Below, one piece after another: positions 983 to 7,849 of a stretch of DNA of 46,238 bases. Positions within the stretch are counted from its first letter, which is position 1, and each line of letters begins with the position of its first letter. The notes beneath the pieces were generated by a model. The model saw only the letters and a list, made by a program, of their open reading frames with translations. It had not been told where the DNA came from and did not search any database. This DNA comes from Acidobacteriota bacterium (GTDB taxonomy: Bacteria > Acidobacteriota > Terriglobia > Terriglobales > Acidobacteriaceae), in NCBI GenBank assembly GCA_021818105.1, contig JAKAFB010000020.1, positions 1-46,238 of the forward strand, written 5' to 3'. Made by a program: the position numbers and the translations under genes.

Positions 983-2509
983 TTATTGCAGGATGGGGAA
1001 GTTGGCGATGCGCTGCTGCCACTCGGCGGGGCCGGTCTGGTGGACGCTGGTTCCCTTGGAATCGACTGCGACGGTGACGGGCATGTCCTTGACGGTGAAT
1101 TCGTAGATGCCCTCCATGCCGAGGTCCTCGAAGGCCAACTGGCGCGAGGCGGTGATGGCCTTTGCGACGAGGTAGGCCGCTCCGCCGACGGCCATGAGGT
1201 AGACGGCGCCGAACTCGCGGATGGCGTCGATGGCGGCGGGGCCGCGCTCGGCTTTGCCGACCATGCCGAGGAGTCCTGTTTCGGCAAGCATCTGGCGGGT
1301 GAATTTATCCATGCGCGTGGCGGTGGTGGGGCCGGCGGGTCCGATGACCTCTTCGCGGACGGCGTCGACGGGGCCGACGTAGTAGATGAAGCGATTGCGG
1401 AAGTCGACGGGGAGCTTCTCACCGCGGCTGAGCATGTCTGTCATGCGCTTGTGTGCGGCGTCGCGGCCGGTGAGCAGCTTGCCGCTGAGGAGGAGGACTT
1501 CGCCGGGCTTCCATGAGGCGGCTTCTTCGCGGGTGACAGTGTCGAGGTTGACGCGGCGCGCGGAGGAGACGTCGTAGGTGAGCCTGGGCCAGGCGTCGAG
1601 CGAGGGCGGGTCGAGGAAGACGGGGCCGGAGCCATCGAGGACGATGTGCGCGTGGCGCGTGGCGGCGCAGTTGGGAATCATGGCGACGGGGAGGTTGGCG
1701 GCGTGGCAGGGAGTGTCGAGGACTTTGACGTCAAGGACGGTGGTGAGGCCGCCGAGGCCCTGGGCGCCGATGCCGAGGCGGTTGACCTTCTCGTAGAGCT
1801 CAACGCGGAGCTTTTCCGCGGTGGTGACGGGACCGCGGGCGATGAGGTCCTGAATGTTGATGGGGTCCATGAGGGACTGCTTGGCGAGGAGCATGGCCTT
1901 TTCAGCGGTGCCGCCGATGCCGATGCCGAGCATGCCGGGCGGGCACCAGCCGGCGCCCATGGTGGGGACGGTTTTGAGGACCCACTCGACGATGGAGTCA
2001 GAGGGGTTGAGCATGATGAACTTTGATTTTGCCTCAGAGCCGCCACCTTTGGCCGCGACGGTGACATCGACTTTGTTGCCGCGGACGAGCTCGACGTGGA
2101 CGACGGAGGGAGTGTTGTCGCGTGTGTTCTTGCGCGCGCCGGCAGGGTCAGCGAGGAGCGACGCGCGGAGCTTGTTGTCGGGGTTGAGATAGGCGCGGCG
2201 GACACCTTCATCGACCATCTGCTGGAGGTCGAGCGCGGGCTCGCCGGGGGCGGCTTCGAAGCGGACATCCATGCCGACCTTGACGAATGCGTTGACGATG
2301 CCGGTGTCCTGGCAGATGGGGCGGTGGCCCTCGGCGCACATGCGGCTGTTGATGAGGATCTGGGCGATGGCGTCTTTGGCGGCGGGGGACTGCTCACGTT
2401 CGTAGGCTTTGGCGAGCGAGGTGATGTAGTCGACCGGGTGGTAGTAGCTGATGTATTGCAGTGCTGCAGCGACGCTGGTAATGAAGTCCTTTTGCAGAAT
2501 GACAGTCAT
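983..2509 (-). CDS. Class I fumarate hydratase (iron-sulfur)
   Basis: Catalyses fumarate + water to L-malate in the TCA cycle, using an oxygen-sensitive [4Fe-4S] cluster in the cytosol. The 508-residue protein is full length for a single-chain class I enzyme. The N-terminal alpha domain carries the three expected cluster cysteines: C66 in RPICQDTG, C189 in GWCPPG and C281 in PNCAATRH. The glycine-rich GIGIGGTAEKAM segment follows C189. The C-terminal beta domain (about 310-508) has the GPTTATRMD motif. The ATG at 2509 was chosen because GGAAGGAG lies about 9 bases upstream; the frame stays open for 22 more codons without a better site. It is transcribed alone, between a bidirectional terminator and a convergent-free gap. 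Identity as fumarase rather than L(+)-tartrate dehydratase rests on overall resemblance to FumA/FumB-like single-chain enzymes. Confidence 0.95.
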   Translation of the reverse strand: MTVILQKDFITSVAAALQYISYYHPVDYITSLAKAYEREQSPAAKDAIAQILINSRMCAEGHRPICQDTGIVNAFVKVGMDVRFEAAPGEPALDLQQMVDEGVRRAYLNPDNKLRASLLADPAGARKNTRDNTPSVVHVELVRGNKVDVTVAAKGGGSEAKSKFIMLNPSDSIVEWVLKTVPTMGAGWCPPGMLGIGIGGTAEKAMLLAKQSLMDPINIQDLIARGPVTTAEKLRVELYEKVNRLGIGAQGLGGLTTVLDVKVLDTPCHAANLPVAMIPNCAATRHAHIVLDGSGPVFLDPPSLDAWPRLTYDVSSARRVNLDTVTREEAASWKPGEVLLLSGKLLTGRDAAHKRMTDMLSRGEKLPVDFRNRFIYYVGPVDAVREEVIGPAGPTTATRMDKFTRQMLAETGLLGMVGKAERGPAAIDAIREFGAVYLMAVGGAAYLVAKAITASRQLAFEDLGMEGIYEFTVKDMPVTVAVDSKGTSVHQTGPAEWQQRIANFPILQ

Positions 2510-2583
2510 GAGAGCGGCTCCTTCCGAACCATCTAGGGTACTCCAACGGAGCGGTGACGGTGGGAAGGAGCGCACGGGTGGTC

Positions 2584-3156
2584 TTACTGGATGGAACCGG
2601 GGTTGGGATGCGGCGCGGAGGGAGACGCAGAAGCGGCCGGCTGCGAGACGCTGGAGCGGGTCTCAGGAATCCAGGCGAGAAAGCGGAGGTCGTCCGGCAG
2701 CGAGGCGCAGAGCGTGCGCAGCTCGCGGGCGAGGGTGAGGCGTTGGATGCCGCGGGAGGCTTTCTCGCGGACGAGGCTGCGCGAATAGGAGAAGAGGAGG
2801 CCGGCGCTGGCCAGGGTGATCATCAGGACGATGCCGGCGATTTTGTCGCCGATGAGGGGCGCGGCGAGAAGCATGAGGAGGCAGAGCATGGCGGGGACGA
2901 AGATGGCCTCCCGCACGGCGCCGATTGCGGAGTCCATGCCATCGAAGCGAGCAAGCTGGAGGCGGCGTTCGTCAATGGCGGCAACGGTGGAATTTTGTGG
3001 GGCGAAGTTGCTGTGGGGGACGGACGGCACAGACGGTGACTCGAGCAGCCGCTGCTGCACGGCGTGATGAACAGCTTCGGCGGGACTGACGCCGAGCGAT
3101 TCCGCGAGCTGGTGGATGAGACGGTCGGTTTCCTGATTCCGGATGTGGATGGACAT
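2584..3156 (-). CDS. Ribbon-helix-helix (VapB/Rv0623-like) domain fused to two membrane helices
   Basis: Predicted 190-residue membrane-anchored protein. Residues 1-38 strongly resemble the Rv0623/PSK-type antitoxin family: a short strand MSIHIRN, then DRLIHQLAESLGVSPAEAV and a second helix with a basic end, i.e. a ribbon-helix-helix DNA-binding fold. A Pro/Ser linker follows (40-55), then a charged stretch, then two hydrophobic segments (about 84-102 and 105-123) separated by a very short turn, then a basic cytoplasmic-type segment (125-148) and a Pro/Ser-rich tail. Family antitoxins are normally about 70-90 residues and are followed by a PIN-domain toxin; no toxin gene lies next to this one. 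GAGGTG sits about 8 bases before the ATG. It is divergent from the YpdA-like gene. DNA binding and membrane anchoring are both inferred. Confidence 0.8.
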   Translation of the reverse strand: MSIHIRNQETDRLIHQLAESLGVSPAEAVHHAVQQRLLESPSVPSVPHSNFAPQNSTVAAIDERRLQLARFDGMDSAIGAVREAIFVPAMLCLLMLLAAPLIGDKIAGIVLMITLASAGLLFSYSRSLVREKASRGIQRLTLARELRTLCASLPDDLRFLAWIPETRSSVSQPAASASPSAPHPNPGSIQ

Positions 3157-3428
3157 GGTGTATCACCTCGCCTGGTTTGGGATGGCCGTGCTCTGCCGGA
3201 TACCGCGCGGCAGGACAGGCTGTGCCGGCGTGCCGGATCGTTGGGAGCGCAGGACGAGGAACTGTGGCCTGCGCGGACAGGGGTGGGACGATTCCGGAAG
3301 CGCCGTACTGAGGGTTTATCGGCAAGTTCAGGAAAAACTTGAGCCGCCGGTTGCGGGGTCCCACGGCTTGGTGGGTGGAGAGCGGGATGGCCTAAGCTAG
3401 AGGGAAGAGCGAGTGGACGGGAGGCGGA

Positions 3429-4424
3429 GTGGCGGACGAGGTATTTGATCTGCTGGTGGTGGGAGCGGGGCCGACGGGGCTGGCGTGCGCGATTGAGGCG
3501 CAGAAGGCGGGCTTTAAGGCGGTTCTTGTGGACAAGGGATGCGTGTGCAACTCACTGTTTCACTATCCGTCGCACATGACGTTTTTTACGACGTCGGAGC
3601 TGCTGGAGATTGGGGACATTCCGTTTCCCAGCCCGAATGCGAAGCCGACGCGGAATGAGGCGCTGCAGTATTACCGGCAGGTGGCAGCGCACTACAAGCT
3701 GGACGTGCGGCAGTACCAGCGCGTGGAGCGGGTGACGGGCGCGGATGGGGATTTTACGGTGCACATGGTGGACCGGTTTGACCGGCCGACGGAGCTGAAG
3801 GCGCGCAAGCTGGCGATTGCAACGGGCTACTATGACCTACCGAACATGATGGGCATTCCCGGCGAGGATCTGAGCAAGGTGCACCACTACTACGACGATC
3901 CGCACCCGTATTTCGGGCTGGATGTGGTGGTGATTGGCGGGAAGAACTCGGCGGCGATTGCGGCGCTGGAGCTGTGGCGGCATGGGGCGCGGGTGACGCT
4001 GGTGCATCGCGAAGGGGAGATTCACCGGCATGTGAAGTACTGGATCAAGCCGGACATAGAGAACCGCATCAAGAATGGGGAGATCAAAGCGTACTTCAAC
4101 TCGCGGGTGGTGAAGATTACGCCGGACACGGTGGAGATAGAGTCGCCGGAGGGCCGGGAGATGCTGCGCAATGACTTTGTGTTTGCGCTGACGGGGTATC
4201 ACCCGGACTTTGCGTTTCTTGAAGGGCTGGGCGTGCGGTTTGAGGGGCAGGACAAGCTGCCGGTGTGCAATGCGCAGACACTGGAGAGCAATGTGCCGGG
4301 GATTTATCTGGCAGGTGTGATTGTGGCAGGTTCGCGGACGAACGAGATCTTCATTGAGAACGGGCGGTTCCACGGGCGGCAGATTGCGCAGGCGCTGGCG
4401 GCGAAGACGGCTGTTCATCCGTAG
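3429..4424 (+). CDS. YpdA-family FAD/NAD(P)-dependent oxidoreductase
   Basis: Flavoprotein of 331 residues resembling the YpdA group (putative bacillithiol disulfide reductases). The FAD-binding Rossmann motif GAGPTG is at residues 12-17, a second dinucleotide motif VVVIGGKNSA is near residue 158, and the C-terminal FAD segment GIYLAGVIVAGS is near 290. The N-terminal part carries the KGCVCNS and YPSHMTFF stretches typical of this family. Start is GTG, chosen for the GGAGG-type site about 7 bases upstream. In characterised Staphylococcus YpdA the active cysteine lies in GGGPCG; here that position is Thr16, so the chemistry may differ. No bacillithiol biosynthesis gene is in the window. It precedes the histidine kinase by about 80 bases on the same strand. 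Confidence 0.88.
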   Translation: MADEVFDLLVVGAGPTGLACAIEAQKAGFKAVLVDKGCVCNSLFHYPSHMTFFTTSELLEIGDIPFPSPNAKPTRNEALQYYRQVAAHYKLDVRQYQRVERVTGADGDFTVHMVDRFDRPTELKARKLAIATGYYDLPNMMGIPGEDLSKVHHYYDDPHPYFGLDVVVIGGKNSAAIAALELWRHGARVTLVHREGEIHRHVKYWIKPDIENRIKNGEIKAYFNSRVVKITPDTVEIESPEGREMLRNDFVFALTGYHPDFAFLEGLGVRFEGQDKLPVCNAQTLESNVPGIYLAGVIVAGSRTNEIFIENGRFHGRQIAQALAAKTAVHP

Positions 4425-6520: not shown

Positions 6521-7849
6521 ATGAGTAGGCCATGGTTCAAGCAGATTTTCCCGAAGGCGCTTGCGTGGGTGTTTCTGATGGCGCTGTGTGGTGTGATTGC
6601 GCTGGCGCAGGATGCGGGGCAGGCAGGCGGCCAGCGGACAGACGGACAGATTGAAATGGACGTGGTGCATGCGCTGGACGCGGCACCTGCGCTGAAGAAT
6701 GACCTGATTACCGCGGCGACGATCCAGGGGAAGGTGACGCTGGCAGGGACGGTTTCCAGCGCGGACAACAAGAAGCTGGCCGAGAATCTGGTAAAAAGCG
6801 TTGCGGGCGTGACGGGAGTGCAGAACAACCTGAAGGTGGGCAACCCGGCGGATGCGCAGAACCTGCCGCAGCCGGACAGCGGCACGGCGGCTGCTCCTTC
6901 GTATGGCGGCAATGCGCCGCAGGCCGGGGGCCAGAATGGTCCGCCGGACTATGGGCAAGATCAGCAGCCGGGCTACGGACAGAGTCCGCAGTACGGGAGC
7001 GGACAGAATCAGGGACCGCAGTACGGATACGGGCAGAACCAGTATCCGGGGCAACAGGGGCAACAGGGGCAGTATCGGCCGCAATATGGCTATCAGCAGC
7101 CGCAACAGCAGCAGCGGCCGATGTATCAGATTCCGAGCGGGCCGGTGACGGTGCCGCAGGGGACGCTGATCCAGGTGCGGACGGCGGAGCCGGTGAGCAC
7201 GAAGCGCGCAGTGGAAGGGACGCCGGTGCAGTTCACGGTGATTCGCGACGTGACGCTGGGCGGCGTGCTGGCGATTCCGCGGGGGGCTACGGTGCATGGC
7301 GTGGTGACGGGTATCCGGAAGGCCGGTGAGCTGGCGGGCAAGCCGGAGCTGGCGCTGGAGTTGACGTCACTGGATTTGGGTGGTCAGAACTATCCGCTGC
7401 AGTCAGATGTGTTCAAGGTGCGCGGTCCGAACAAGGCTGGGCGCACGGCGGGCAACGTGGTGGGCGGCGCGCTGCTGGGAGCGATTATCGGCGGCGTGGC
7501 GGGCGGCGGTGGTGGTGCTGCGATTGGAGCAGTGGCTGGCGGCGGCGCGGGCACGGCGGTGTCTGCGGCACAGTCCGGGCCGAATGTGTGGATTCCATCC
7601 GAGGCGCTGGTGACGTTTCACCTGGCGGCTCCGCTGACGGTGAACCCGGTAAGCCAGGAGGAGGCAAACCGGTTGGCCGAGGGATTGAACCAGGGTGGAC
7701 CGACGCTGCGGCAACGGGGCAACTACAGGCCGCGGCCGTATGGGTATTACCCGTACGCATATCCGTATCCCTATGCGTATCCGTACCCGTATGCGCCGGT
7801 GTACTACAGGCCGTACTTCTTCTCGGGCGGGTATTACTACTGGCGGTAA
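6521..7849 (+). CDS. BON-domain envelope protein with Gln/Gly/Tyr-rich linker and glycine zipper
   Basis: Exported 442-residue envelope protein. A signal peptide (1-30, ending ALAQD) is followed by a BON domain (about 43-106, with VTLAGTVSS and the closing GVTGVQNNLKV), a fold linked to phospholipid or outer-membrane association. Residues about 112-212 are a low-complexity Gln/Gly/Tyr/Pro linker with repeated QYG and GQNQ units. A beta-rich domain (about 215-300) then leads into a glycine-zipper helix pair (about 305-350, GGALLGAIIGGVAGG), which often inserts in membranes. The C terminus (about 402-442) is a Tyr/Pro/Ala repeat of PYAY-type units ending YYYWR. AAGGGAG precedes the ATG by about 9 bases. 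A strong hairpin terminator follows. Function is not established; a structural or stress role in the envelope is inferred. Confidence 0.82.
   Translation: MSRPWFKQIFPKALAWVFLMALCGVIALAQDAGQAGGQRTDGQIEMDVVHALDAAPALKNDLITAATIQGKVTLAGTVSSADNKKLAENLVKSVAGVTGVQNNLKVGNPADAQNLPQPDSGTAAAPSYGGNAPQAGGQNGPPDYGQDQQPGYGQSPQYGSGQNQGPQYGYGQNQYPGQQGQQGQYRPQYGYQQPQQQQRPMYQIPSGPVTVPQGTLIQVRTAEPVSTKRAVEGTPVQFTVIRDVTLGGVLAIPRGATVHGVVTGIRKAGELAGKPELALELTSLDLGGQNYPLQSDVFKVRGPNKAGRTAGNVVGGALLGAIIGGVAGGGGGAAIGAVAGGGAGTAVSAAQSGPNVWIPSEALVTFHLAAPLTVNPVSQEEANRLAEGLNQGGPTLRQRGNYRPRPYGYYPYAYPYPYAYPYPYAPVYYRPYFFSGGYYYWR

Follow-up and report, generated by a model that had tools for sequence, protein, structure and literature searches.

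Can the antitoxin of a toxin–antitoxin pair, once its toxin is gone, continue as a protein of another kind? This question is raised by a gene in a stretch of 46,238 nucleotides (here called the window) from an Acidobacteriota bacterium of the family Acidobacteriaceae (contig JAKAFB010000020.1). The gene (2584..3156, minus strand) was delimited by its open reading frame, by a Pfam scan, and by alignment with a second genome of the genus. It starts with ATG and encodes a product of 190 amino acids in which a VapB-type ribbon-helix-helix (RHH) domain is fused to a predicted two-helix membrane module. In the following, G000 is the genome of the window and G038 is the second genus genome with the fusion. 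The reading that we favor, with a probability of roughly 0.55, is that a former antitoxin has become a membrane-tethered, dimeric DNA-binding protein whose specificity is no longer that of VapB.

The gene and its domains

An initial annotation, made from the sequence alone, had proposed an antitoxin-type RHH in residues 1–38, followed by two membrane helices, a basic segment, and a Pro/Ser tail, with no PIN toxin adjacent. The first of these claims is borne out in both species by scores above the curated cut-off. In the Pfam scan, residues 1–38 of the G000 protein matched positions 1–38 of the 82-position profile PF07704 (PSK_trans_fac) with E 5e-10 and 40.6 bits, against a gathering cut-off of 28.3 bits, and the G038 protein scored 38.9 bits with a weak extension of the match to profile position 61. 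Profile positions ~40–82 represent the toxin-binding half of the antitoxin; this half is missing from the G000 protein, whose match ends at position 38. Among PHROGs, phrog_5333, of unknown function, matched residues 8–39, that is, the RHH only (E 8e-5). With the AlphaFold helices and dN/dS also considered, the RHH domain was set at residues 1–40 (3037..3156, minus strand, as are all segments of the gene).

The remainder of the protein can be divided into five parts. First, a variable linker (residues 41–55; 2992..3036) is predicted to be disordered, with pLDDT below 50 at 39–54, and is gapped and little conserved in the alignment of G000 with G038. Second, a predicted cytosolic helix, or stalk (residues 56–85; 2902..2991), is defined by the alignment and by an AlphaFold helix at 56–98, and carries the motif AIDERRL..AR.DGMD.A in both fusions. 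Third come two predicted membrane helices, residues 86–103 (2848..2901) and, after a short G-D-K turn, residues 107–124 (2785..2838), placed by hydropathy and by the AlphaFold helices 56–98 and 106–151. Fourth, a basic helix follows the anchor (residues 125–151; 2704..2784; AlphaFold and charge count) and is expected to be cytosolic. Fifth, a Pro/Ser/Ala tail (residues 167–190; 2587..2658), with pLDDT below 50, shows no detectable selection in the dN/dS analysis. The membrane stretches of the initial annotation hold at the level of hydropathy and a predicted helical hairpin, and its basic segment and Pro/Ser tail are present.

As that annotation had also stated, no PIN toxin is adjacent. The downstream neighbor on the same strand is a class I fumarate hydratase (PF05681/PF05683; 983..2509, minus strand), which is separated from the fusion gene by 74 bp if, as chosen here, the ATG at 2509 is its start. 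The divergent neighbor is a YpdA-like reductase (Pfam Pyr_redox_3; 3429..4424, plus strand), and a ypdA match is present in 74 of the 80 genus genomes. Between the fusion and ypdA lies a divergent intergenic region common to both genes (3157..3428), in which the heptad scan described below found no GGTAGAA array. No promoters or terminators were found in 2400–3500. Near the ypdA start, the segment CTCTAGCTTAGG-CCAT (minus strand; window 3386–3412) occurs at many genus loci, both fusions included, and is possibly a ypdA promoter or leader.

The full-length fusion is present in two of the 80 genus genomes, G000 and G038. The two proteins share 52% identity and the same architecture, with lengths of 190 and 191 amino acids, and their genes have identical neighbors, with fumarase downstream and ypdA divergent. 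The initial annotation had asked whether homologues conserve the fusion and what flanks it, and had named a missing RHH match, or a fusion seen in this genome only as an assembly error, as grounds for giving up the reading. The first is answered by the Pfam score above the cut-off; the recurrence of the fusion in G038, in the same setting and under purifying selection, disposes of the second.

Comparison of G000 with G038 gave a dN/dS of 0.38 for the whole fusion (bootstrap 0.25–0.55), with none of 500 bootstraps at or above 1. The values were 0.28 (0.15–0.46) for residues 59–166, 0.31 (0.06–0.75) for the RHH, and 1.04 (0.30–3.16) for the tail at residues 167–190; synonymous sites in the linker were saturated and its ratio was not used. 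Selection is purifying on residues 59–166 and, within looser bounds, on the RHH, where the looseness results from only two fusion sequences being known; the tail looks neutral. In the same pair of genomes, YpdA shows 88% identity, a dN/dS of 0.13, and a synonymous divergence of 0.52, and the corresponding values for fumarase are 92%, 0.15, and 0.36. The synonymous divergence of the fusion (1.04) is above both, for which codon bias or a different history may account. The fusion evolves fast, yet it is under constraint.

In the aligned blocks, the sense frame has a pN/pS of 0.55 and is without a stop in either species; all five other frames are interrupted by a stop in one or both species. An antisense ORF on the plus strand (2554–3039) that overlaps the gene was considered and rejected, and the sense frame was taken as the gene. 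Antisense frame 0 contains one stop in G000 and has a pN/pS of 0.98, frame 1 contains four stops per species with a pN/pS of 0.63, and frame 2 contains six and ten stops.

The locus in the genus

The initial annotation had offered a remodelled antitoxin as one of two readings, and the genus lends it good support: congeners carry a vapB–vapC pair at this position, and the fusion keeps the VapB RHH only. The survey classified 72 loci upstream of ypdA in 71 genus genomes (two of them in G003) out of the 74 with a ypdA match; it left out ypdA pieces of 125–272 codons in G029, G117, and G101 and a second piece in G106. By the criteria of the script, 29 loci hold an intact vapBC, four a partial vapBC (in G046, where vapC is frameshifted; in G003, where a contig end truncates it; in G011; and in G103), two only vapC scraps, two the fusion, and 35 none of these, the last class including at least seven loci with less than 1.4 kb upstream (G003b, G043, G047, G056, G006, G104, and G045). 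In the loci displayed, VapB has 85–93 amino acids and mostly ends in a tail resembling ..DGRTSKELMDELYD.ETGLP, VapC has about 129–135 amino acids and starts with M(I/T)VD(S/T)S, the two genes often overlap by 4 bp, and, wherever the sequence extends as far as fumarase, transcription of the pair runs toward it. The VapB of G035 at the corresponding locus matched VapB30 over its length (E 1e-4).

Several measurements place the fusion in this vapBC slot. Taken from match starts, and thus accurate to about 12 bp, the distance from fumarase to ypdA amounts to 908 and 926 bp for the fusions and 860–916 bp for eight compact vapBC loci, the other vapBC loci being longer. Compared with vapB genes at the DNA level, the G038 fusion gave significant matches within nucleotides 1–115, which stop at the end of the RHH, and the G000 RHH gave a weak match (E 0.003). 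Because the G000 match is weak, the main arguments for descent from this vapB are the position and the G038 match. The VapB tail motif (..DGRTSKELMDELYD..GLP) is absent from the G038 fusion when aligned with the genus VapBs, and from the G000 sequence. No vapC gene is present at the two fusion loci, and no VapC of the family of this locus was found in the G000 or G038 genome at E 0.01. The gap to ypdA is 272 and 288 bp in the fusions, compared to 111–189 bp in 25 of 31 vapBC rows and 207–751 bp in the other six; since the gap of the fusions exceeds that of the 25 rows, a simple deletion does not account for the change.

Short vapC fragments, mostly of the 3′ end, were also seen beside or without full pairs at L100 (G052), L103 (G116), L113 (G053), and L118 (G055), and another lies at G035:C55:14737-14826. 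They look as if modules had been lost or exchanged via the conserved 3′ end of vapC.

A second derived form occurs in G011 (L096) and G103 (L106), where the vapBC slot holds a 71-residue RHH frame that lacks the toxin-binding tail and has a vapC 3′ scrap behind it, with the motif NEETC in both. The heptad array is absent from both, residue 4 is Y and R, respectively, and the G103 genome encodes a further VapC of the family at a different locus. The two genomes fall in different subclades of the YpdA tree, so either more than one branch has retained a tail-less RHH, or it has moved from branch to branch.

The same tree, which includes 69 of the 72 rows, bears on the origin of the fusion. Both G000 and G038 lie in one unresolved 26-row clade together with vapBC and empty loci, and none of 200 bootstrap trees placed them as sisters, although the strong branches are compatible with a single origin. 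The module common to both species means that the fusion originated a single time; as they are never sisters, its distribution requires either descent with losses in relatives or transfer.

Four GGTAGAA heptads precede vapB, beginning about 40, 32, 19, and 11 bases ahead of its start codon. The counts of heptads and RHH residues cover those 31 vapBC rows in which the start of VapB could be read. At least three heptads, one mismatch allowed, were present in 27 of these, compared to means of 0.04–0.66 in mononucleotide shuffles of the same 110 bases; the remaining four rows had 2, 2, 1, and 0, and two of them (G052 and G058) have a vapB 3′ piece between the copy used and ypdA. From its position and repetition, the array is likely a VapB operator of direct repeats. 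The spacing of the heptads is nearly fixed (8, 13, 8), as in L095 (G054), L105 (G057), and L164 (G021). Before the fusions, there are no heptads in G000 and one in G038, at the ribosome-binding site. Among seven genomes examined, the 15-mer GGTAGAATGGTAGAA, one mismatch allowed, was present in G054 and G035 and nowhere in G000, G038, G011, G103, or G107. A search for a new operator or palindrome common to both fusion species found none.

The RHH itself has changed at one position of interest. Residue 4 lies on the strand with which an RHH reads the major groove; it is H in both fusions, compared to N (23) and S (8) in the 31 toxin-linked VapBs. At residue 6, all 31 have K, as does G038, and G000 has R. 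Both fusions have hydrophobic residues at RHH positions 3 and 5 and a basic one at position 6, and keep N7, G22, and S24. The initial annotation had also suggested a regulator of the sequestration type; the loss of the array and the change at residue 4 speak against a simple sequestered VapB.

These changes also form part of the case for the main rival explanation, in which the RHH no longer reads DNA and is a mere dimerization unit for a small membrane protein that acts via its hairpin and basic helix. RHH folds are obligate dimers, and residue 4 reads DNA in RHH proteins; the lost ancestral array and the altered residue 4 would both fit, as would a module that is at least as constrained as the RHH (dN/dS 0.28 versus 0.31). 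However, both fusions keep the G22-x-S24 turn, which contacts the phosphate backbone in RHH proteins, along with a polar residue at position 4 and a basic one at position 6, none of which dimerization alone would need. We consider this explanation unlikely, though far from negligible, and prefer an RHH that would still bind DNA with altered specificity.

A remnant in decay, in which a fragment of the RHH happens to read through into a hydrophobic frame, is a very unlikely explanation of the gene. The vapBC pair does decay in congeners, as vapC scraps without vapB are left at 2 of the 72 loci and nothing was detected at 35, some of them cut by contig ends; moreover, the protein changes rapidly, with a tail free of detectable selection. 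However, the same architecture has stayed open and selected in two species at a synonymous divergence of about 1, and conserved motifs occur outside the RHH.

The membrane module and its relatives

The membrane assignment is based on hydropathy and a predicted helical hairpin. Kyte-Doolittle means over 19 residues peak at 84–102 (2.58) and 106–124 (2.03) in the G000 protein, where the mean hydropathy exceeds 1.4 from 76 to 126 without a clear dip between the peaks; the G038 protein has two separate peaks. The hydrophobic helical hairpin covers about 86–124, its two stretches separated by the G-D-K turn, and residues 125–151 contain seven K/R versus two D/E in both species. AlphaFold, run with a two-sequence input, gave a mean pLDDT of 65, with an antiparallel hairpin (56–98/106–151) at about 80 and RHH helices at 8–21 and 25–39; the N-terminal strand 1–6 was not modelled (pLDDT below 50). 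On these predictions, the product would be a membrane protein that has a DNA-binding domain and a membrane helix in one chain. The turn is so short that both ends of the hairpin are expected on one side of the membrane. By the positive-inside rule, basic flanks of membrane helices face the cytosol, and the basic flank, together with the RHH, points to the cytosolic side for both ends.

Searches for relatives of the module covered families, structures, and genomes. Residues ~58–172 matched no described family above cut-off in Pfam, NCBIfam, or PHROGs; the best sub-threshold scores were 17.2 bits for TgpA_N in G038 (cut-off 30), 14.6–15.7 bits for AAT (cut-off 23.2), and 13.8 bits for UpsA (cut-off 130), and phrog_20672 matched the module with E 0.077. 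Foldseek found no match at E ≤0.001 (best 0.57). A sequence search of solved structures with the fusion yielded nothing below E 0.3, and VapB30 was not matched at E 1. The two-row module alignment, run against 396 genomes of the phylum, matched only G000 and G038 at E 5e-4, and the full-length alignment, run against the 80 genus and 399 class genomes, gave full-length matches from only the same two; in the class and phylum searches, about 8–11 first-look candidates were scored per genome. Whole-protein searches found no match in a plasmid collection or in viral contigs. In peptide-pattern scans of GTDB contigs, one of them with RHH peptides only, the sole relative was the G038 contig.

Weak matches to the module were obtained in the 80 genus genomes: G058 (E 6e-4), G001 (0.006), G119 (0.007, with stops), G047 (0.012), G041 (0.013), G009 (0.036), and G045 (0.042), which may be what chance gives in 80 genomes. 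Within the 1.3 kb before ypdA at the 70 other loci, the best protein-level match had E 0.15. At the DNA level, G047 matched the module with E 0.003 (67% over 72 nt, opposite strand) and G008 with E 0.05; both were read as chance and rejected as its source, yet the G047 match is as strong as that of the G000 RHH to vapB. Altogether, the genus, class, phylum, plasmid, and viral sequence samples appear to hold no convincing relative of the module, and the hairpin is possibly newly born.

A different role for the module would be that of a membrane-active effector repressing its own gene, in which case a single gene would make up a toxin-like element regulated by the RHH. In other systems, toxins are often small hydrophobic proteins, and the gene sits in a toxin–antitoxin locus, but the module has no match above cut-off to a described family in Pfam or NCBIfam. 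We regard such an element as highly improbable.

Fate of the antitoxin function

Since no VapC of the family was found and the toxin-binding half is gone, the antitoxin role of the fusion is probably over. That the fusion still neutralizes, from the membrane, a VapC encoded elsewhere or borne on a mobile element is extremely unlikely: PMC2701414 does discuss solo antitoxins with an action in trans, but the VapB tail and a family VapC are both absent (the latter at E 0.01 in G000 and G038), the three other PIN loci of G000 match that VapC weakly (E 0.05–0.6 in a search against those loci alone), and the one of the three that was inspected has its own small upstream ORF.

The function proposed for the membrane-tethered DNA-binding protein would have arisen as follows. 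An ancestral chromosomal vapBC would have lost VapC and the toxin-binding tail of VapB, and the VapB RHH would have been joined in frame to a lineage-specific module consisting of the stalk, the two-helix hairpin, and the basic helix. The hairpin would be short, with both ends cytosolic. The product, presumably dimeric, would work like the one-piece transmembrane transcription regulators, passing a signal from the membrane to DNA with a changed DNA specificity. The ypdA and fumarase promoters are the first candidate targets, suggested by position alone. A broader claim, to which we give somewhat less than even odds, is that within one genus a toxin–antitoxin locus was converted into a one-protein membrane regulator by dropping the toxin and the tail, erasing the array, changing the DNA-reading residue in step, and adding the hairpin.

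Neither one-component regulators bound to the membrane nor antitoxins that became regulators are new. Compared to VapB of the Rv0623/VapB30 type (PF07704; VapB30 structures 4xgq/4xgr), the fusion has the same N-terminal RHH in residues 1–38 but lacks the toxin-binding C-terminal half, VapC, and the heptad array, and has gained a membrane module. The transmembrane transcription regulators, such as CadC and ToxR, likewise combine a DNA-binding domain with a membrane helix and no other recognizable domain; the survey PMC10269533, in the portion drawn on here, gives about 57% of such regulators as having the DNA-binding domain as their only recognizable part. Unlike these, the fusion has an antitoxin-derived RHH and a two-helix hairpin with hardly any periplasmic part. 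The main text of that survey does not contain the words ribbon, RHH, or antitoxin, although RHH members may already be listed in its supplementary domain table.

Antitoxins turned transcription factors have likewise lost the toxin and kept the DNA-binding part, according to sections of PMC2701414 and PMC8987985, the latter relaying a proposed antitoxin origin of RHH transcription factors. Those sections do not mention a membrane anchor, which here replaces the toxin-binding half, and Makarova et al. (2009; PMC2701414) reported that, as of that time, a membrane component had not been detected in any type II system. Among open-licence papers, no PF07704 RHH with a membrane anchor in such a stepwise locus setting was found. 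The reuse of antitoxins as regulators is argued in these sources, so far as the sections used here go, mostly from scattered solo genes. The present locus holds intact, scarred, RHH-only, and membrane-fused forms within one genus, making changes in operator, DNA-reading residue, and partner traceable. If true, the proposal would describe a route from a selfish addiction module to a membrane-to-DNA signalling protein.

Two minor observations concern other parts of the genome. Elsewhere in the G000 genome (G000:C71, L180), a PIN protein of 122 amino acids is overlapped by a 71-residue upstream ORF that may encode its antitoxin. In the window, a Gln/Tyr/Pro-rich ORF (6521–7849) contains short tandem repeats at 6986–7042 and 7748–7795, with units of 30 and 18 bp.
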